Source: a virus. From it: 27,344 nt of DNA. Below the pieces are notes generated by a model. That model was not told where the DNA came from. It did no database searches and worked only from the letters and a program-made list of their open reading frames with translations. Position numbers and translations under genes: made by a program. Shown here piece after piece: positions 6,806-19,422 of this stretch (position 1 is the stretch's first letter; each line of letters opens with the position of its first letter). Where the stretch lies: positions 1 through 27,344 of the IMG/VR virus record IMGVR_UViG_3300025314_000083. One strand, 5' to 3'.

Positions 6806-7522
6806 ATGACAAACAAGTCGCTCACGGCCGCGGCCGTCACCGACAAAGGCATAAGGCTCTCGATCATCTATGTTCGACTGAGCCAAGCTCGTAAGTGGGA
6901 AAAGAATCCTAAGCGCCACGATTTCGACAAACTGATCGCATCCCTGCGCAGATACGGCTTTCGTGATGCGCCGATCTACGACGAGACACTCGGTGCTCTC
7001 GTGGGTGGCAACGGCCGTCTGGAAGCTCTGGAACGCATGCAGGCGCAAGGAAAGTCTCTGCCCCCTGCTGGTGTACTGCTCGACACAGAAACAGGGGAAT
7101 GGTGCTTGCCTGTGCAGGTTGGCGTGAACGCCAAGAGCGTCAGCGAAGCTGAGCAGTTCGCAGTCGATCACAACAATCTGACGCTGGCGGGTGCTGATCA
7201 TTTCGAGCTGTGGAATGAGGGATACCTTGCGCTGATCACTGAGCTCAAAGAACAGGGGCAACTCCCGATCTCGATTTCTGACAACGACATGCAGGCGATC
7301 GCTTTGCAGATGGGCGAGCTCGAAGCTGAGGGCGGGCGCAAAGAGTTCGGTGAGTTTCAAGATCAAAACGTAGGCGAGGACAACGTGCGCTTTGCGTTCG
7401 GTGAGTACAGGGGCTTGATCAGTCGCAAGACGTATGACGCTTTTGCGAAGCGAGTCGAGAGCTTGCGTAAGAGCAAAAAGACGACGCTCGGCAAGATTCT
7501 CGAAGTGATGTTCAAACGATGA
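6806..7522 (+). CDS. ParB/Srx-like domain protein
   Basis: This 238-aa protein has a ParB N-terminal-type fold: ARKWEKNPKRH (28-38, the strand and N-P turn), DFDKLIASLRRYGF, then P-I-Y-D and G-G-N-G-R-L-E-A-L (67-75), which matches the G-x-x-R-x-x-A nucleotide-binding motif of ParB/sulfiredoxin domains. V-D-H-N-N-L (135-140) is also usual in phage members. Phages often carry this domain beside a DNA methyltransferase, where it is annotated as a ParB-like nuclease or DNA-modification protein; its exact reaction varies. The stop overlaps the next ATG. The C-terminal 60 residues are basic and probably bind DNA or partner proteins. Confidence 0.8.
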   Translation: MTNKSLTAAAVTDKGIRLSIIYVRLSQARKWEKNPKRHDFDKLIASLRRYGFRDAPIYDETLGALVGGNGRLEALERMQAQGKSLPPAGVLLDTETGEWCLPVQVGVNAKSVSEAEQFAVDHNNLTLAGADHFELWNEGYLALITELKEQGQLPISISDNDMQAIALQMGELEAEGGRKEFGEFQDQNVGEDNVRFAFGEYRGLISRKTYDAFAKRVESLRKSKKTTLGKILEVMFKR

Positions 7523-7683
7523 CACCCGAGGAAATTCAAGACTTAGAGAGTTTGCGCAGAGCGATCAGGGCGATCGACAGCGCACGCATCCCAACGGTAG
7601 GGCAGATCGTCTTGCTCGCGATCGCTGTTGCGCTCATATTGGCTACGATCATTCTGATCGCGGGAGCTCGTCTCTATGGCTAA
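7519..7683 (+). CDS. Small membrane protein between ParB-like and methyltransferase genes (54 aa)
   Basis: ATG 7519 overlaps the preceding TGA, and the stop TAA (7681-7683) lies inside the next gene, an eight-base overlap. The N-terminal 25 residues are charged (MTPEEIQDLESLRRAIRAID). One long hydrophobic helix follows (about 28-50: GQIVLLAIAVALILATIILI), ending AGARLYG. It is a probable single-pass membrane protein. Sharing bases with both neighbours suggests co-translation, so it is unlikely to be a chance frame. No family is recognised. Confidence 0.7.
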   Translation: MTPEEIQDLESLRRAIRAIDSARIPTVGQIVLLAIAVALILATIILIAGARLYG

Positions 7684-8602
7684 GGCAAAGAAAGCAAAGA
7701 ACGTCGCTGAGCTGAAAGCTTCTGTCGAAGCGGGGCAAGACCGCCGCGCGGATCTACATAAGCAGTTCGGCTTTATCCCGAGATCAGTTCTGCACTTGGG
7801 GCGTGGTGCGCTCAGTGCTCGAATGCACAGCTATCAGAAAGAGAACCCGTCTACGTTGAGATCAGCCGCGGCGATGATGGGCGACGATAGCCAGTCGAGA
7901 CTGCGCAAGTCGATCGGCGTGATCGGTGGCGTGAAAGCAACACAGCAAGACAGCGCTCGAGCGTCGACAATGCCAGCAGAGCTCGTCGACTTTTGCATCA
8001 AGTATTACGCCAAGCCATTTGACAACTATCTTGACCCGTTCATGGGACAGGGTGTGCGCATGCAGGTTGCCAAGATGCGCTCGCTCAATTATTGGGGGTA
8101 CGACGTGAGCGAGGATTTCTTTGCCTACTGCGAGCATGTGCGAAAGCTGATCATCAGAGATCAGCCTGAGGTCGGCATCAACATCACTCGAGGCGACAGC
8201 AGAACGCCTCTCGACATACCTGACGGCATCGGCGATTTTTCTTTTACGTCGCCGCCCTATTGGGATATCGAGTTCTACGGCAACGAGCCTGAACAGCTCG
8301 GCACAAACAGCACTTACCCCGCCTTTCTCGAGAGCATGTACGAGGTAGCGAAAGCGTGGCATCCCAAGTTCAAGGCGGGTGCGTGGGTCGTGGTCAACGT
8401 CAATGACTTTCGCAGAGAGGGCAAGTTCTATAGCTACCATACCGACACGATCGCACTGTACGGGCGAGCGGGCTACACCCTGCACGACACTTGGATAATC
8501 GAGGGCTTGGTCGGCGGGATGAACAGGCTCTTTGCAGTCGATTTCAACTTGAAGCGCATCGCTCCAAAGAATCACGAGTACTTATTGGTTTTCAAAGCGT
8601 GA
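7676..8602 (+). CDS. DNA methyltransferase, N4-cytosine type (SPPYW)
   Basis: This 308-aa protein carries D120-P-F-M-G-Q-G126, the SAM-binding motif I, and G-Y-D at 141-143 after it. The catalytic motif IV is T191-S-P-P-Y-W196. S-P-P-Y-[W/F] is the hallmark of N4-cytosine and related beta-class amino-methyltransferases. The order (motif I before IV) and the last strand V-V-N-V-N-D agree with that group. The lysine-rich N-terminus (MAKAKKAKNVAELKASVEAG) is probably flexible. Phage enzymes of this kind methylate the genome to evade host restriction. It is co-transcribed with the ParB-like gene. The target site cannot be read from the sequence. Confidence 0.88.
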   Translation: MAKAKKAKNVAELKASVEAGQDRRADLHKQFGFIPRSVLHLGRGALSARMHSYQKENPSTLRSAAAMMGDDSQSRLRKSIGVIGGVKATQQDSARASTMPAELVDFCIKYYAKPFDNYLDPFMGQGVRMQVAKMRSLNYWGYDVSEDFFAYCEHVRKLIIRDQPEVGINITRGDSRTPLDIPDGIGDFSFTSPPYWDIEFYGNEPEQLGTNSTYPAFLESMYEVAKAWHPKFKAGAWVVVNVNDFRREGKFYSYHTDTIALYGRAGYTLHDTWIIEGLVGGMNRLFAVDFNLKRIAPKNHEYLLVFKA

Positions 8603-12146: not shown

Positions 12147-14352
12147 CGACATCAACAAACAGCTTGCGCCGCGTGCGCGCTCGTACCTCTTGGGTGAGGG
12201 CGTTTCGACTCCGATCTACCCGCTGAGCGACAAGAAATTCAGCCCGTCAGAGTATGGCAATTACATTGCCACGTCGAACGGCGTGTATGTGTGCTCGAAC
12301 CTGCGAGCGGATCTGCTTTCGAGCTCGCCCCTGAAAACTCTCAAGCGCATGAAAGTCAAAGACGAGATCAAGGGCATCGAGCAGACGAGCGGTGATCTCT
12401 ACGATCTGCTAAATAAAGTAAATCCGTTTTGGACTTTGAACCGCCTGCTCTACATGACTGAGCTCTCGCTCTCGTTGTGGGGTAAGGCGTTTTGGTTTGT
12501 TGAGCGTGGCGCGAGTGGCAAAGGTGCGCCGCAAGAAATCTGGTGGGCGCGCCCCGATCGTGTAAAAGTAATTCCTCACCCGACGAAATACATTGATCAT
12601 TTCGAGTACGACCCCGGCGCTGGTAAGCCGCTCGAGTTCTCGCCTGCTGAAACTGTTTGGCTGAGATACCCGAACCCGATCGACGAATACGAGGGTCTCT
12701 CGCCGCTGGCCGCGGCGCGCATCGCGGCAGACATCAGCACGTCAGCAATGAAGTCAAACAAAAATTTCTTTGATCAAGGCATGCTGTTGGGCGGTGTGAT
12801 CAAGCCGCCTGAGGGTGTTGCGTGGTCGCCCAAGCAGAGCGACGAGCTCGAAGAAAACATGGAGCGCCGCTTCGCTGGCAAAGACCGACATCATCGCTGG
12901 ATGGTGATGAGGCAGTCTGTCGGCGTTGAAAAAGTGGATATGAGCATGAAAGACGCTGAGTTTATTGCGACGCTCAAGTGGTCTCTCGACGACATCGCTC
13001 GCGCTTACAAGATTCCCCCTGATCTCATCGGCGGGCAAGCGATCTATAGCAACGCTCACGAAGCCGAGCGCGCTGTGTGGAATAGAGCGATCAAGCCCGA
13101 GGCTCGCTTCTTACAGACTGAACTGACCGAGCAACTCGTGCCGATGTTCGGCCTGCAAAAAGACACCTACGTTGAGTTCGATTTCTCGGGTGTGGCTGTG
13201 CTCAACGAAGCCGAGAATGACAAGTGGACGCGAGCGAGCGGTCAGATCGCCTCGGGCGTTATCACGATCAACGAGCAACGCGAGGAGCTCGGTCTCAAAA
13301 AAATGCCATGGGGCGACACTTGGTGGAAGCAATTCTCTCTCGCTGATGTAGCTATGGACGCGAAGCCCGACGACGAGCCTGCTGATGATCAAGTCGACGA
13401 GGAAGATGACGACGATGCTGAGCGCGGTGTGCGCTCGTACAGCCCGATCGTCTACGGCGACGAGCGACATCAGTTTCACTGGCAGAGACACATTCGCCGC
13501 GCGAGCAAGTACGAGACGAAGCTCAGCGATCGAGTGATCGCATTGCTCGAGCGCCAGCGCGCAAGTGTGCTCGCAAAGCTCAAGGCGCGCAGTGCACGAA
13601 CGCCGAGCGAAGCTGAGCTCAACCCGTTCAGTCTTGCTGAGTGGACTAAGACGTTTCGCGAGTCTGTTCGCCCTGTGATCTCTTTTATCGTCTCAGATGC
13701 CGGCCAAGCCGCGATGGAAGATTTAGGTGTGAGCGCCGCGTTTGATCTGAGCAACCCGCAATTCATTCGTTTCATGGAGCGACGCACGCAACGCTTTGCA
13801 GAGCTCGTCAACGAGGCTACATGGAATGAGCTCAAGTCGTCTCTCGCTGAGGGTATGGCGGCTGGTGAAGCTGTGCCGTCTCTTGCTGATCGTGTTGAAC
13901 AGATCATGGCAGAGCGCATTCGATCAACCCCCGAGGTGATCGCACGCACTGAGGTCAACGGCTCTGTCAACGGTGGCACGCTGATCGGCTGGAAGCAAAG
14001 CGAGGTCGTCTCAAAGAAAAGCTGGCTCGGCACTCTCGACGATCGCACTCGAGAGACGCACATCGAAGCCCACAACCGCTATCAGCAAGAGCCGATCGAT
14101 CTCGACGAGGATTTCATTGTTGGCGCTGGCGCAGGCGACGCGCCCGGACAGATCGGCTTGCCCGAGGAAGACATTCAGTGCCGTTGCTCGATGATGCCCG
14201 TGATCGACGAGCGCACTTATTTTCAAAAGGTCGGTCGCTCACCGATCGGCGCTGTGCATCTGCCGTTCATAATGCAGAAAGATCGCAAGATGACTGAGAA
14301 ATATTTGAAACGCCTACTAGACAAATTGGAGGTCGTACCCCATGTCGACTAA
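12133..14352 (+). CDS. Portal protein fused to a MuF-like minor head domain
   Basis: This 739-aa protein combines two phage head proteins. Residues 1-405 are a portal of the HK97 type, with Y-V-C-S-N-L-R-A-D near the start, L-S-P-L-A-A-A-R (189-196), and Y-K-I-P-P-D-L-I-G-G (292-301), the usual end of the core. A strongly acidic linker (411-430) follows. The C-terminal part (about 585-692) is MuF-like: A-R-T-E-V-N-G-S-V-N, W-L-G-T-L-D-D-R-T-R-E-T-H, and I-Q-C-R-C-S-M-M-P. Portal rings form the DNA entry vertex; MuF proteins sit inside or near it and may be injected. Stand-alone portals are usually 400-500 aa. The next gene starts 10 bases before its stop. Confidence 0.92.
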   Translation: MSILDDINKQLAPRARSYLLGEGVSTPIYPLSDKKFSPSEYGNYIATSNGVYVCSNLRADLLSSSPLKTLKRMKVKDEIKGIEQTSGDLYDLLNKVNPFWTLNRLLYMTELSLSLWGKAFWFVERGASGKGAPQEIWWARPDRVKVIPHPTKYIDHFEYDPGAGKPLEFSPAETVWLRYPNPIDEYEGLSPLAAARIAADISTSAMKSNKNFFDQGMLLGGVIKPPEGVAWSPKQSDELEENMERRFAGKDRHHRWMVMRQSVGVEKVDMSMKDAEFIATLKWSLDDIARAYKIPPDLIGGQAIYSNAHEAERAVWNRAIKPEARFLQTELTEQLVPMFGLQKDTYVEFDFSGVAVLNEAENDKWTRASGQIASGVITINEQREELGLKKMPWGDTWWKQFSLADVAMDAKPDDEPADDQVDEEDDDDAERGVRSYSPIVYGDERHQFHWQRHIRRASKYETKLSDRVIALLERQRASVLAKLKARSARTPSEAELNPFSLAEWTKTFRESVRPVISFIVSDAGQAAMEDLGVSAAFDLSNPQFIRFMERRTQRFAELVNEATWNELKSSLAEGMAAGEAVPSLADRVEQIMAERIRSTPEVIARTEVNGSVNGGTLIGWKQSEVVSKKSWLGTLDDRTRETHIEAHNRYQQEPIDLDEDFIVGAGAGDAPGQIGLPEEDIQCRCSMMPVIDERTYFQKVGRSPIGAVHLPFIMQKDRKMTEKYLKRLLDKLEVVPHVD

Positions 14353-15562
14353 GAAAAAACTGATGCGGGCTTATCGAGCTGACGAGGTCGTCGGCGAAAT
14401 GGGAACTGCGATGCGCTTTGTTGCGTCAACGTCTGAGATCGCACGCGACAACATGATCATCGATGCTAAGGGGTGGGAGCTCGACAATTACAAACTGAAC
14501 CCTGTCATCTTGTGGGCGCACGATCTATTCGGCAAGACCCCGCCCATTGGCCGCGGCGATGCGTTTATCGATGGCAAGAATCTGATGGTCGATATTATTT
14601 TCGATCAAGACGACGCGTTCGCCGTCTCAGTCGAGCGCAAGTACCGCAAAGGCTTTCTGAATGCGCTGTCTGTGCAGTGGGAAACGCTCGAGGTTGAGCC
14701 TGCACAAGCGGGACAACCGTTCACGATCACTCGAGCAGAACTGCTCGAGATTTCTGCTGTGCCTGTGCCTGCCGACCCGCTTGCTTTGAAAGAGCGCGGC
14801 ATGGCTGAGGTTCGAACCCTACGCAGTGAGCTCGGTGAAATGCTCGTCGAGCTCGGCGAGAAAGTTTCTGATGTCGTCGTGATGGGTGCAGTCACCCGCG
14901 TCGGCACTCGCGTCTCGATCACGGGCTCACCGCTCAACGTCTCAGCTTATCGGCCGGGGGTTGTGAAACCTCACAACAAAGGCACTCACGAACTCGAGTA
15001 TGAGTTCAGCGACGAAAGAGATTTCCCAGCTTCGCACGATCTGAGTGATGACAAGTTCGGCGAGCTGTTTGCTTACGTCGGCAATTTTGCCGACGATCAA
15101 CATGAGTTCTACCTCTTGCATCACAGCAAAGACGGGAAGGCAGTTTGGCGCAGTGTGGCGGCCTGTATGGTCGATCTCTACTGCGGCACTGCTGGAGTAC
15201 CGGATGAGGCTGTGCGCGGGGTGTATGAACACCTTGCTCGACACTATCAGCAGTTTGGCAAGATCGCCCCTGAGTACATCGAGCCTGTTGCGTTGCGTGC
15301 CTACACGGGCGCGATGCGAGCTGGCTTGTTCCTCGAGGGCGAGGCAGAGACATTCCCTGATCAATTCAGCGAACCGCTCTTAGAGCGGGGAACGCGATCG
15401 CGGGTCAGGGAAGGTCTAAAGGCGATCAGATCGCTCGTCGATGATCTGTACATCGATCTCGCGGGCGACGAAACGCCTGAGCCAACGTCAGACGTGTCTG
15501 GTGTAGAGCTCAAACTAAAGCAGATCGACGATCTGCTATCACCTACTCAAGGAGAAAAGTAA
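14342..15562 (+). CDS. Prohead (maturation) protease, HK97/U35 type, with extra C-terminal domain
   Basis: This 406-aa protein begins with the serine protease core: L-N-P-V-I-L-W-A-H60-D, N-A-L-S110-V-Q-W-E and L-L-E136-I-S-A-V-P-V-P-A-D-P, the His, Ser and Glu positions of this family. It trims scaffold and capsid N-termini during head maturation. Ordinary members are about 160-230 aa. Here a second domain at about 215-315 follows, with SHDLSDDKFGELFAYVGNFA, Y-L-L-H-H-S-K-D-G-K-A-V-W-R and YEHLARHYQQFGKIAPEY. Its H-H...W-R-S-V-A-A-C-M and H-L-A-x-H-Y-x-x-F pattern is seen in other phage protease fusions. GGAGG just upstream is the ribosome site. It directly precedes the capsid gene. Confidence 0.88.
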   Translation: MSTKKKLMRAYRADEVVGEMGTAMRFVASTSEIARDNMIIDAKGWELDNYKLNPVILWAHDLFGKTPPIGRGDAFIDGKNLMVDIIFDQDDAFAVSVERKYRKGFLNALSVQWETLEVEPAQAGQPFTITRAELLEISAVPVPADPLALKERGMAEVRTLRSELGEMLVELGEKVSDVVVMGAVTRVGTRVSITGSPLNVSAYRPGVVKPHNKGTHELEYEFSDERDFPASHDLSDDKFGELFAYVGNFADDQHEFYLLHHSKDGKAVWRSVAACMVDLYCGTAGVPDEAVRGVYEHLARHYQQFGKIAPEYIEPVALRAYTGAMRAGLFLEGEAETFPDQFSEPLLERGTRSRVREGLKAIRSLVDDLYIDLAGDETPEPTSDVSGVELKLKQIDDLLSPTQGEK

Positions 15563-17110
15563 ATGCCTGACAAAGACACACAGCTTGAGAAAGAGTTTGG
15601 CGCGTTTCTCGAGAAAATCGAACAACGCATGAGCGCCATGGACAAAGCGCCGACCGAAGATCAGGTCAAGGCGTGGGTTCGCGAGGGTCTCGACGACCTC
15701 AAGGGCGACGAGGAATTTATCCGTCGCATGCGCTTCGGCGACAACACGACTGAGCGCGAGCTCGTCGGCACGAAATTCGCTCGCCACAATCTCGGTCTTG
15801 CCGAGGTCGAGCTTTTGTTTGACTTGCAGAACGCTCTGACGGGTCAGAAGCGCGCGACGGGCGACGGTGTGTATAAAGGCCCAAGCGACGAGCTGAAGAA
15901 CACGTTTGAAGCGATCTCTGACGCGGTGTACATCCCCGACGAAGAAATCCGCAAGATCGATCGCAAGGCGCTCGACGATCTGTTTCCCCGCATCCCTCTC
16001 GCCCGCTTCTACGGTAAAGATCGCGTGCTCGCCAAGAAAGGCGCATTCGAGCTGACTGAGGCGTACCAGCGCGCGATCCGCGCCATGGACACCGCTGAAA
16101 GCGGCTATGGCTCTCAGCTCGTCGGCGCTCAATACGTCGGCGATCTGTGGGAAGCCGCCCGCCGCGAGAGCGTGATTTTCAGCCGCATCGAATCGTTCGA
16201 GATGACTGCCCCGACCGCGTACCTGCCCGTCGAGGTCGACATCCCTGAGCTCTTGTTCGTGAGCGAAAGCACTGCGAACAACAGCGCGAACTATTCGACC
16301 GTCAAGACTGGATCTCAGCGCGTGCAAGTCGACGCGAAGAAATTCGTCTTGCATCAGATGTTCTCGGGCGAAATGGAAGAGGACGCGATCTTGCCGTTCG
16401 TGCCTTTCCTGCGCCGCCAAGCTGAGCTCGGAATGCGCCATTACTCCGACTCGCTTGCTCTGAACGGCGACACCACCAACGCAGGCACAGGCAACATCAA
16501 CCTCGACGATGCTGACCCCGCCGACACCAAGCACTATCTGGCGTTCGACGGCATCCGGCACGTTGGCTTGGTCGATGTGACCACCAATCAGACCGACATG
16601 AGCGGCGCGGCCGTGGCGCTGTACGACAAGCTCTTGAAACTGCGCGGCAAAATGATCGACAGCGCCCGCTTTGTGGACTGGGGTCATCCCATCGACCCGA
16701 CTGATCTGATCTACGTCGCAGACCCCGAGTCTGCTGACCTGATCGCGTTGCAAGACGAAGTGCTGACTGTCGACAAGTACGGTGCTGGTGCGACCGTGCT
16801 CGCTGGCGAACAGCTCAAGATCGGTCGTCACCCGCTGATCTCGTCAATGGCGATGAGCAAGACCGAAGCTGACGGCAAGGTCAGCACGACTGGCGGGAAC
16901 AACACTCTCGGGCAAGTCGCCGCTTTCAACCGCCGCGGCTATGTGGTCGGCTGGCGTCGCCGTGTGAAGCTCGAAGCTGAGCGTCTCATCGGTTCTGACC
17001 AGACCCGCCTCGTGTGGTCGATGCGTCTCGGCATGGGTCGGTTTACTCCGACTGGTGCCGCGAGCGGCATCGAGAGCGCGGCCGTGCTGTTCAACTTGAG
17101 CCTCGCCTAA
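15563..17110 (+). CDS. Major capsid protein (HK97 fold)
   Basis: This 515-aa protein immediately follows the protease, as in HK97-type operons, and has the ribosome site AAGGAG. Residues 1 to about 120 are charged and helical, like the delta domain that scaffolds assembly and is removed by the protease. The rest shows familiar capsid segments: a strand region LPVEVDIPELLFVSES, K-F-V-L-H-Q-M-F-S-G-E-M-E-E-D-A (E-loop to spine region), then S-L-A-L-N-G-D-T-T-N (axial domain). The C-terminal strands end IESAAVLFNLSLA. It builds the icosahedral shell. A hairpin follows the stop at 17145. A 430-codon open frame lies opposite it but is a codon-bias shadow. Confidence 0.92.
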   Translation: MPDKDTQLEKEFGAFLEKIEQRMSAMDKAPTEDQVKAWVREGLDDLKGDEEFIRRMRFGDNTTERELVGTKFARHNLGLAEVELLFDLQNALTGQKRATGDGVYKGPSDELKNTFEAISDAVYIPDEEIRKIDRKALDDLFPRIPLARFYGKDRVLAKKGAFELTEAYQRAIRAMDTAESGYGSQLVGAQYVGDLWEAARRESVIFSRIESFEMTAPTAYLPVEVDIPELLFVSESTANNSANYSTVKTGSQRVQVDAKKFVLHQMFSGEMEEDAILPFVPFLRRQAELGMRHYSDSLALNGDTTNAGTGNINLDDADPADTKHYLAFDGIRHVGLVDVTTNQTDMSGAAVALYDKLLKLRGKMIDSARFVDWGHPIDPTDLIYVADPESADLIALQDEVLTVDKYGAGATVLAGEQLKIGRHPLISSMAMSKTEADGKVSTTGGNNTLGQVAAFNRRGYVVGWRRRVKLEAERLIGSDQTRLVWSMRLGMGRFTPTGAASGIESAAVLFNLSLA

Positions 17111-17190: not shown

Positions 17191-18363
17191 ATGAAAGATT
17201 TTCTGAAAAAAGTTTCTTGGCCGACCGTGATCTTGTGCCTGATCGTCTCGATCTTTGCAGTGAATTTTCTGCTCAACGAAACGAGCGCTGGCATCGAAGC
17301 TCGCGGGGTAAGAGAGCGCATCAGCATCGACGCTGGTGAGGATGCTTACCTCTACAACGGCGCTGATGTGATCGTCTACTCAGACAATCACACGACCGAG
17401 GTTGCGCGCATCGACGGCGCGACAGGCGCGATCACGTCGTCCGCAGGCATCACTGTCTCGGGCGTGGTCGACTTGAACGGCTTAGAGCTCACGCTCGACG
17501 CAGATGCCGACACGTCGCTCACTGCCGACACCGATGATCAGGTCGACGTTGAGATCAACGGCGCTGATGACTTCCGCTTTGTGGCGAATATCTTTCGTGC
17601 GCTGAGCGGCTCAAGCATCGAAACGAACACGATCAACGAAACGACCGCAACTAACGGCGTTACTGTCGACGGTCTGTTGATCAAGGATTTAGGCTGGTTA
17701 CTCGGCACAGGTGGCTTTGCTGACATCAACGGCGAAGCTGACGGGCTGATCTTGGATGCCGATGCTGACACAACGCTCAGCTCGCCAACAGACGATCAGA
17801 TCGATGTCGAGATCAGCGGCGCTGATGATTTCACGTTTACCGCCAACCTGCTTACAGCTCTCTCGGGCTCAACGATCGCGACAAATACGATCGCAGAGAC
17901 AACGGCCGCGAGTGGTGTAACGATTGACGGCTTGCTCGTGAAAGACGGTGGTCTGACTGTTCTTGCGGGTGCAGATGTCATCGCCCAAAACTCTACTAAC
18001 TCGGGCTTGATCTTTGCCTGCGAGAACACGGTCGCTTTTGGCGACACCGCCAACAAAACGATCTGCGTCATTCCTGCGAATGCAAACATCGTCGACATCA
18101 CGTTTTGGGTATCGACTGCATTCGATGACAGCGGCACTGACCTCATCGCCTGCGGCACGACAAGCGGCGACCCCGACGAATATGTGGATGATCTCGCTGG
18201 CGGCACTGCTGGCATCAACCGTATGGGTGACGCGGCCGACATGGTTATCGCAATGGCCGATGTTGGTGCAAGCGACATCACCGTGCTCTGCAAGTACACA
18301 GGCCAGAATGCGAACGCGACCGCGGGTGCGGCTCGTTTGGCGATCTTGTATACGGTCGACTAA
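17191..18363 (+). CDS. Membrane-anchored repeat protein, probable virion/decoration protein
   Basis: This 390-aa protein starts with a basic stretch and one hydrophobic helix (about 11-28: PTVILCLIVSIFAVNFLL), a signal anchor without a clear cleavage site. Then come two copies of a 65-residue unit at about 102-166 and 188-252. Each starts L-D-A-D-A-D-T, passes through T-D-D-Q-[VI]-D-V-E-I and G-A-D-D-F, and ends G-V-T-[VI]-D-G-L-L-[IV]-K-D. The period is 86 residues. Dense Asp/Asn turns suggest a beta-helix or calcium-binding fold. The C-terminal 110 residues are a different, Cys-containing domain. GAAAGGAAAG is the ribosome site. Similar repeats occur in metagenomic phage structural proteins, so head decoration or fibre is the best guess. 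Confidence 0.75.
   Translation: MKDFLKKVSWPTVILCLIVSIFAVNFLLNETSAGIEARGVRERISIDAGEDAYLYNGADVIVYSDNHTTEVARIDGATGAITSSAGITVSGVVDLNGLELTLDADADTSLTADTDDQVDVEINGADDFRFVANIFRALSGSSIETNTINETTATNGVTVDGLLIKDLGWLLGTGGFADINGEADGLILDADADTTLSSPTDDQIDVEISGADDFTFTANLLTALSGSTIATNTIAETTAASGVTIDGLLVKDGGLTVLAGADVIAQNSTNSGLIFACENTVAFGDTANKTICVIPANANIVDITFWVSTAFDDSGTDLIACGTTSGDPDEYVDDLAGGTAGINRMGDAADMVIAMADVGASDITVLCKYTGQNANATAGAARLAILYTVD
17494..17946 (+). repeat. Two diverged coding repeats of about 195 nt
   Basis: Copies at 17494-17688 and 17752-17946 encode the duplicated 65-residue unit of the preceding protein. They are similar in protein (LDADADT, TDDQ, GADDF, ALSGS, GVT, DGLL) but diverged in DNA, indicating an old duplication kept under protein-level selection. 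A third short trace (VDLNGLELTLDADADT) leads into copy one. Confidence 0.8.
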
Positions 18364-18375
18364 GAGCCTGCTCTT
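18362..18375 (+). promoter_or_regulatory. Inverted repeat covering stop and TTG start
   Basis: AAGAGCCTGCTCTT is a perfect inverted repeat (AAGAGC / GCTCTT around CT; a folded RNA would leave the innermost pairs open). It covers the end of the previous stop, the weak Shine-Dalgarno AAGAG and the first two bases of the proposed TTG start. Folding in mRNA would hide the start, so translation may depend on ribosomes arriving from the upstream gene. Confidence 0.4.
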
Positions 18376-18919
18376 GAAATCTGTTCTTGCTCTGACTGCT
18401 CACAGCTACCTCAGGGCAACCTTAGAGGTAATCGGGGATGCTGGCAATGTGCTGGCATTCCCGCCTCTGTGGGCTGGCGCATTGCAGGCAGATTTTTTCA
18501 CTGGCTACGACGTGATCTATCTCGACTTGCACGGCTTCACAGATTCGATCTACTTGTATTTCGATCGTGAGGGTCAGCAAGGCGCTCTGAACGTGAACAC
18601 ACTGAAAGATGCGAAGCTCGGCGATGTGGTTGTTTTCTCGACTGCGTGCAACTTCACCAAGACAGCTTTCCCTCAAGCGTTTTATGACGCTGGTGCGCAA
18701 GCTGTGATCGGCGGCGAGGGCTTGAACTATGCAGGCAAGACCCGCATAGCTGGCGCTCAGCAATTGGCAAAATTCTTGATCAAGCGTTTGAACGCAGGTG
18801 AAATGCCTGATCGAGCGCTTGCAAATGCGAAAATGAATTTACGTTTCACACCTGCGGCTCTCTTGAGGCGACCCGAGGTGATCGATGCTCTCGACTTTGA
18901 AATCTTGCGGAGGCAGTAA
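18374..18919 (+). CDS. CHAT / caspase-like protein in the head operon
   Basis: From TTG 18374 this is a 181-aa protein: MKSVLALTAHSYLRATLEVI and on. It has the core of CHAT/caspase-fold peptidases: Y-D-V-I-Y-L-D-L-H53-G-F, then D-V-V-V-F-S-T-A-C92-N-F, then F-Y-D-A-G-A-Q-A-V-I-G-G-E-G. A helical end with L-N-A-G-E-M-P-D-R-A-L-A-N-A-K follows. In CHAT proteins a His-Gly and an x-A-C strand supply the His-Cys dyad, and G-A-x-x-V-[IV]-G plus G-x-x-x-x-x-A-L follow, as here. The start is uncertain because no ATG or GTG precedes the fold in frame without deep overlap. The stop overlaps the next ATG. Activity, substrate and virion location are unknown; this domain is rare in phage structural operons as far as I know. 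Confidence 0.65.
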   Translation: MKSVLALTAHSYLRATLEVIGDAGNVLAFPPLWAGALQADFFTGYDVIYLDLHGFTDSIYLYFDREGQQGALNVNTLKDAKLGDVVVFSTACNFTKTAFPQAFYDAGAQAVIGGEGLNYAGKTRIAGAQQLAKFLIKRLNAGEMPDRALANAKMNLRFTPAALLRRPEVIDALDFEILRRQ

Positions 18920-19422
18920 TGGCTACAAAGACTTATGAAATCGCTTGGAATTACGCGAGCTCGTACGGCGGGCCTTGGATGGCTGGCGACAAGGTGCAAC
19001 TCGACGAAGACGTTGCCGCTATGGTGAACAGCGACTCCCCCGGCGTGCTCAAGGGCTATAAGGCTGACAGCGACCCGATCGTTGAGCAGTCGAAAAAGAA
19101 TCGCATGGTCACTCAGGCAGAGACCCGCGAAGGCGACTGGCCGCGAGCTGATCGCGTCACTGGCTCGAAGAAAGCCAAGGGCGCGCCCAAGTCGAAAGCC
19201 GTCGCTGGCGAGAAAGGCGAGAAGCCTGAGAAAGTCGAAAAGGCTTCTGTCTATCCCGAGGGCACTCGAGCTCACGAGCTCGATCAAGTCGTCGGCGCTG
19301 GCAAGGACGGCATGACGAACCTGTGGTCGCTGGCAAAGAAATACGGCTTGAGCCAGAAGGGTAAGAAGCCTGAGCTGATCGATCGCATCGTGGCTTTCGA
19401 GGCCGAGGAAAAAAAAGAGTAA
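18919..19422 (+). CDS. Head-region protein with C-terminal SAP-like motif
   Basis: This 167-aa protein starts at an ATG overlapping the preceding TAA. Residues 1-50 (W-N-Y-A-S-S-Y-G-G-P-W-M-A-G-D-K-V-Q-L) form a small strand-rich domain common in phage head modules. A Lys/Ala/Pro-rich linker runs about 80-110 (KKAKGAPKSKAVAGEKGEKP). The C-terminus (about 131-162) reads LWSLAKKYGLSQKGKKPELI then DRIVAF, close to the SAP helix-turn-helix in which G-L-x-x-x-G-K-K-x-E-L-I-x-R binds DNA. This suggests a head protein that touches packaged DNA or the host chromosome. Confidence 0.7.
   Translation: MATKTYEIAWNYASSYGGPWMAGDKVQLDEDVAAMVNSDSPGVLKGYKADSDPIVEQSKKNRMVTQAETREGDWPRADRVTGSKKAKGAPKSKAVAGEKGEKPEKVEKASVYPEGTRAHELDQVVGAGKDGMTNLWSLAKKYGLSQKGKKPELIDRIVAFEAEEKKE

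Follow-up and report, generated by a model that had tools for sequence, protein, structure and literature searches.

A candidate CHAT-like cysteine peptidase paired with a predicted membrane-anchored spike in phage head operons

What might a small caspase-like protein be doing among the head genes of a phage? The question arises from the window, by which we mean the whole 27,344-base IMG/VR virus record analysed here; an identical copy is present in three other contigs. A sequence-only reading had singled out a 181-aa frame at 18374 for its motifs D-L-H53-G-F, S-T-A-C92-N-F and G-A-Q-A-V-I-G-G, located between a membrane-anchored repeat protein and a SAP-like protein, and had proposed it as a second protease next to the canonical prohead protease. 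The frame, its motifs, both neighbours and the prohead protease are all present (Table 1). The operon runs from a portal-MuF fusion (12133) through the S78 protease (14342), the capsid protein (15563), the anchored repeat protein (17191), the CHAT-like gene and the SAP gene (18919) to a head-tail connector (19518). The stop codon of the CHAT-like gene and the ATG that starts the SAP-domain gene overlap. Its TTG start matches, in the family alignment, the N-termini of relatives that begin with ATG or GTG and read M-R-I-L-A-Y-C or similar. Elsewhere in the window, a DUF559 protein is encoded at 544-927 (4.9e-5, above the cut-off), and genes for a ParB-like protein and, after it, a DNA methyltransferase lie just 5' of the terminase region (6806-8602).

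Table 1. Features of the window that bear on the CHAT-like gene and its partner.
Feature	Position	Strand	Basis
CHAT-like (caspase-fold) cysteine peptidase candidate, 181 aa, TTG start	18374..18919	+	Sub-threshold Pfam CHAT match, 15-row family alignment, AF2 model, Foldseek
His53 codon CAC, putative catalytic His, end of third core strand	18530..18532	+	16/17 full-length homologues; aligned with CHAT His
Cys92 codon TGC, putative catalytic Cys, end of fourth core strand	18647..18649	+	17/17 full-length homologues; aligned with CHAT Cys
SAP-domain small head-operon protein, 3' neighbour of the CHAT-like gene	18919..19422	+	Pfam SAP 7.4e-6, above cut-off
S78 prohead protease, separate and canonical	14342..15562	+	Pfam Peptidase_S78 4.6e-5, above cut-off
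Major capsid protein	15563..17110	+	phrog_267 3.9e-4; 61 relatives
Beta-repeat spike, predicted membrane-anchored, 390 aa; partner gene 10 bases 5' of the CHAT-like gene	17191..18363	+	Hydropathy, neck motif
Spike hydrophobic anchor, aa 12-28	17224..17274	+	Mean hydropathy 2.72
Spike juxtamembrane neck, conserved, aa 40-48 (VRERISIDA)	17308..17334	+	Alignment of spikes
Spike C-terminal tip, last 110 aa, exchangeable part in relatives	18031..18360	+	Tip comparison, 20 spikes

We found 17 further distinct homologues of the 181-aa protein on IMG/VR contigs of uncultured phages. One of them, in L018, was reached via the relatives of the window's capsid protein (phmmer 1.5e-35, 41% identity) and occupies the same slot, after the capsid and membrane protein genes. 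Iterated scans together with two nucleotide patterns built on the His motif yielded 15 distinct proteins, including that of the window, and a scan with the membrane protein later added L135, L140 and a truncated member, L137. Homologues keep the two proposed catalytic residues: across members down to 27% identity with the window protein, the Cys is invariant among those of full length and the His is missing from a single one, L067 (L067:8001-8561), which has Asn (codon AAT) in its place and retains the Cys. This substitution may represent a natural inactivation or, as it comes from a single contig, a sequencing error. In two close pairs of homologues the dN and dS values were 0.074 and 0.69 (ratio ~0.11) and 0.044 and 0.43 (~0.10), which shows strong purifying selection. 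Taken at the level of sequence, the homologues, the conserved His/Cys pair and the low dN/dS confirm that the frame is more than a chance one. When three different members served as tblastn queries, none of the 50,697 named phage records gave a detectable homologue, and scans of 84,980 genomes with a degenerate pattern gave no confirmed homologue; L099, the one match of the second pattern scan, is a chance match within an unrelated 517-aa frame. PHROGs, NCBIfam and PADLOC hold no model for the protein, with no meaningful match from PADLOC. Given this and the lack of a relative in named phages, current annotation overlooks the gene. Weak matches to the BsuBI/PstI endonuclease, phrog_1639, ComF, chagasin, MerF and a DRT protein, each involving one or two members rather than the family, were regarded as noise.

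The assignment to the caspase fold rests mostly on structure prediction and profile alignment. With the 15-row alignment of homologues, AlphaFold2 gave a model with a pLDDT of 94.6 and a pTM of 0.91; a single-sequence model (pLDDT 38) was set aside. In the alignment-based model, His53 follows the strand formed by residues 47-51 and Cys92 that formed by residues 86-89, a strand order and placement of the two residues that we take to be those of clan CD enzymes. Foldseek searches of the PDB ranked Csx29 at the top (8eey_B, E 6.6e-5, TM 0.61), then SAVED-CHAT (8tl0, 1.5e-4) and the Craspase TPR-CHAT protein, followed by gingipain R and caspase-11; in this lower-ranked part the E values were 1.4e-3 for gingipain R (1cvr) and 1.4e-3 for a caspase (6kmt). 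Flavodoxins also matched, at ranks below CHAT, and we attribute these matches to the common alpha/beta core. The best viral structural match was an uncharacterised 320-aa protein of Myoviridae sp. ctWaE18 (BFVD A0A8S5MXG5, 8.4e-5, TM 0.54), possibly another phage-encoded CHAT-like enzyme.

At the profile level, hhalign against 30 cellular CHAT domains gave a P value of 3.6e-6, with His53 and Cys92 falling on the CHAT His and Cys. A profile of the 15 phage proteins run against 394 cellular genomes of one phylum retrieved two matches only, both of which are CHAT proteins by Pfam (1.2e-36 and 5.3e-23). Direct Pfam searches were less telling. The window protein matches CHAT (PF12770) with 16.9 bits (E 0.0045) against a cut-off of 24, over profile positions 141-267 of 289 and hence less than the full domain, and just two of the 15 family members match at all; by Pfam's own cut-off, the protein thus falls outside PF12770. 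The L018 homologue has a weak match to peptidase C25 (0.064), sequence searches of the PDB returned chance matches only, and the 181-aa protein matches no known prohead protease family, S78 or other. The predicted structure combines what characterises clan CD, namely a caspase-type alpha/beta fold and a conserved His/Cys dyad aligned after successive core strands. It is therefore almost certain, as far as a model can tell, that the protein has a caspase fold closest to CHAT enzymes, and the earlier identification of a stand-alone enzyme of this kind is upheld by prediction, structure comparison, profile alignment and conservation alike. By its dyad, the protein would be a cysteine endopeptidase.

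The genetic context is equally consistent. The gene 5' of the CHAT-like gene codes for an N-terminally anchored beta-repeat spike in 17/17 readable loci (contig L089 starts inside its spike gene), and in none of them does a CHAT-like gene occur without a spike. The reverse arrangement exists: four loci (L141, L143, L144 and L145) have a spike without a CHAT-like gene, the next head genes coming directly after it. Furthermore, a search with a profile of the spike neck brought up no membrane protein beyond those of the known members, apart from the one in L062, where the contig breaks off within that gene. On account of the spike-only loci and of this distribution, the CHAT-like gene accompanies the spike, and the spike can dispense with the CHAT-like gene. 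Among the relatives of the window's capsid protein, L018 is the only one to harbour a CHAT-like gene. Where the sequence is readable, the others have no anchored spike in the slot, often a protein of ~140 aa without an anchor instead, and those without a CHAT-like gene retain their other head genes. The CHAT-like gene is an accessory cistron of the head operon. The pair also appears to cross capsid backgrounds: between L135 and L137, the capsid proteins are 34% identical as against 64% for the spike N-termini and 60% for the readable half of the CHAT-like proteins, and in L081 the pair is found 5' rather than 3' of the capsid gene. Such constant pairing suggests that the spike and the putative protease work together. 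As for the spacing of the two genes, they mostly touch, overlap or sit within ~100 bases of each other, with gaps of ~400-460 bases in L070 (7588-7995) and L073 (7531-7995). Another accessory insertion is seen in L138, where a frame whose start resembles that of a DNA methyltransferase (ITDLPYGT, read by eye) lies between the connector and the next head gene (L138:7834-8604).

The spike of the window has one strong hydrophobic segment followed by repeats. In seven other spikes (L066, L067, L068, L069, L074, L081 and L090) the anchor has a lipobox-like motif at its end, read by eye, and membrane anchoring of the spikes is predicted from hydropathy and these motifs. The C-terminus of the L069 spike (L069:6652-7911) matches Phage_depo_C, the C-terminal beta sandwich of depolymerases (1.7e-5, above the cut-off); here a domain of virion type sits on a protein that bears a lipobox. 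The tips appear to be swapped among spikes, as in adhesins and receptor-binding proteins: a closely similar 110-aa tip is found on L140 and on L090, L075 and L143 despite their differing necks and anchors. Judging from the anchor and the exposed, swappable tip, the spike may have a role at the cell surface, for example in superinfection exclusion or receptor masking.

Which part of the spike does the protease follow? We distinguished by eye three types of necks, I (VRERI-ID), II (EIVALG-THFSGL) and III (R-Y-T-VY--GG). The tree of CHAT-like proteins accounts for these neck types and one unassigned row with three changes, the lowest number possible, and 0/200 shuffles were as low; neck type I has full support in the tree, types II and III weak support. 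Tips do not follow the protease in this way. The tips of L140 (neck I) and L090 (neck II) are 62% identical and their CHAT-like proteins 33%, whereas L138 and L140 have CHAT-like proteins 92% identical and different tips. As neighbouring genes are co-inherited, the agreement between tree and necks supports, without proving it, an action of the protease at the neck or anchor. In a separate comparison, the linker between anchor and neck measures 7-14 aa in spikes with a CHAT-like gene (n=8) and 22-37 aa in those without (n=4), a perfect separation that is a lead only, because the four CHAT-less spikes resemble one another. The latter also have IDS in place of IDA in the neck.

We tentatively favour, with a confidence somewhat short of even, the idea that this minimal stand-alone CHAT-type peptidase acts on or with its spike. 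The spike, first gene of an accessory two-gene unit, would be held in the host membrane by its transmembrane segment or a lipid, with a layout of anchor, conserved neck, beta-repeat stalk and exchangeable tip. The peptidase, encoded by the second gene, would be made right beside it and act on or with its anchor/neck end, most likely by cutting the spike at a specific site and so processing, releasing or controlling it. Contact between the two could take place before export, via the short cytosolic tail of transmembrane-type spikes, or at lysis, and the pair is presumably expressed late. In a broader form of the proposal, possible albeit more doubtful, the two would make up a surface module in which an exchangeable-tip spike is matured, released or controlled by a dedicated minimal caspase-type peptidase, and which moves as one piece among capsid backgrounds unrelated to each other. 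Several observations argue against an action on the spike. The peptidase has no signal sequence, and the neck of an N-in/C-out or lipidated spike is expected outside the membrane; the seven lipobox-like spikes would retain no cytosolic tail. In addition, four loci have a spike without the enzyme, and L067 lacks His53. The suggestion in the sequence-only reading that the 17191 protein may be the substrate agrees with the strict gene pairing and conflicts with the predicted topology, and cleavage is putative.

The topology difficulty disappears if the peptidase is instead an active late enzyme aimed at a host or host-defence protein, since the spike would then act separately at the surface: the two genes would form one cell-protecting cassette, with an exported spike and a cytosolic enzyme in different compartments. 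Its moron-like presence or absence and its conserved dyad would suit such a role, and many CHAT enzymes are conflict proteins (see also PMC10028731). By itself, a host target does not explain why the CHAT-like gene is never found without a spike or why it tracks the neck rather than the tip, and we consider this explanation rather unlikely, albeit the strongest of the competing ones. The same fold is common to the TPR-CHAT and SAVED-CHAT defence proteins, so the phage protein could also be a decoy or inhibitor that mimics them, its catalytic residues being irrelevant. A near-invariant His/Cys pair would be needless for a decoy, the pairing with the spike would go unexplained and a late operon is a poor position for an anti-defence gene; this scenario seems to us very improbable. 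Of the earlier proposal that the protein blocks host CHAT defence, the pure decoy version is therefore disfavoured, and an active anti-defence enzyme survives as part of the host-directed explanation.

The dyad also bears on whether the protein is a peptidase in practice. Helper genes often come directly after a fibre-like gene, as the CHAT-like gene does, and L067 has Asn at position 53, which would suit a caspase-fold chaperone for spike assembly or export; we find such a role improbable in view of the invariant Cys92 and nearly invariant His53 across distant members. Little probability likewise attaches to a virion protein or virion-maturation protease, be it a second prohead protease or a protein packaged and injected with the DNA. 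The location of the gene in the head operon, near the capsid gene, makes the idea natural, and the sequence-only reading had raised it. Yet almost every relative that shares the capsid protein lacks the CHAT-like gene and keeps its other head genes, the pair moves among capsid types and in L081 flanks the capsid gene on its opposite side, and a separate S78 protease is present. A general virion protease role is thus disfavoured, and an action on or with the spike is the reading that we tentatively retain.

What is known of CHAT enzymes comes mainly from large and regulated proteins of bacteria, several of which take part in antiphage defence. The phage protein, in contrast, is a single 181-aa domain. 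Csx29, its best structural match, includes an N-terminal domain, TPR repeats and a pseudo-caspase CHAT1 domain and works with an RNA-guided partner; its catalytic pair, H615 and C658, shows the same order of His then Cys, with a spacing of 43 residues (PMC10028731) compared with 39 in the phage protein. Similarly, the TPR repeats, CHAT1 pseudo-domain, Cas7-11 partner and regulator of TPR-CHAT/Craspase are all absent, and the gene adjoins head genes rather than a CRISPR system. The SAVED-CHAT filament protease is the second-best structural match, but the phage locus has neither a SAVED sensor domain nor a cyclic-nucleotide system. Relative to the cellular proteins of PF12770, the phage protein is missing the N-terminal portion of the domain; its His and Cys align. 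Gingipain R (C25) and the caspases (C14) have the same fold with structural scores below CHAT, and the phage protein is devoid of the signal and pro-domain of gingipain. As for the spike, the Ltp-type superinfection-exclusion lipoproteins are phage-encoded and anchored at the host surface (PMC3952083). The spike resembles them as a phage-encoded protein with a predicted surface anchor, a likeness in description rather than in compared sequences, and differs by its beta-repeat stalk, its virion-type tip, its place in the head operon and the caspase-fold gene that follows it. Searches of the open-licence literature yielded no description of a CHAT protein standing alone in a phage head operon. 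A conserved single-domain form that occurs in head operons and is linked to a membrane spike would show that phages, too, put the CHAT fold to use, and the CHAT-like protease and its spike represent a small enzyme-partner pair open to direct test.
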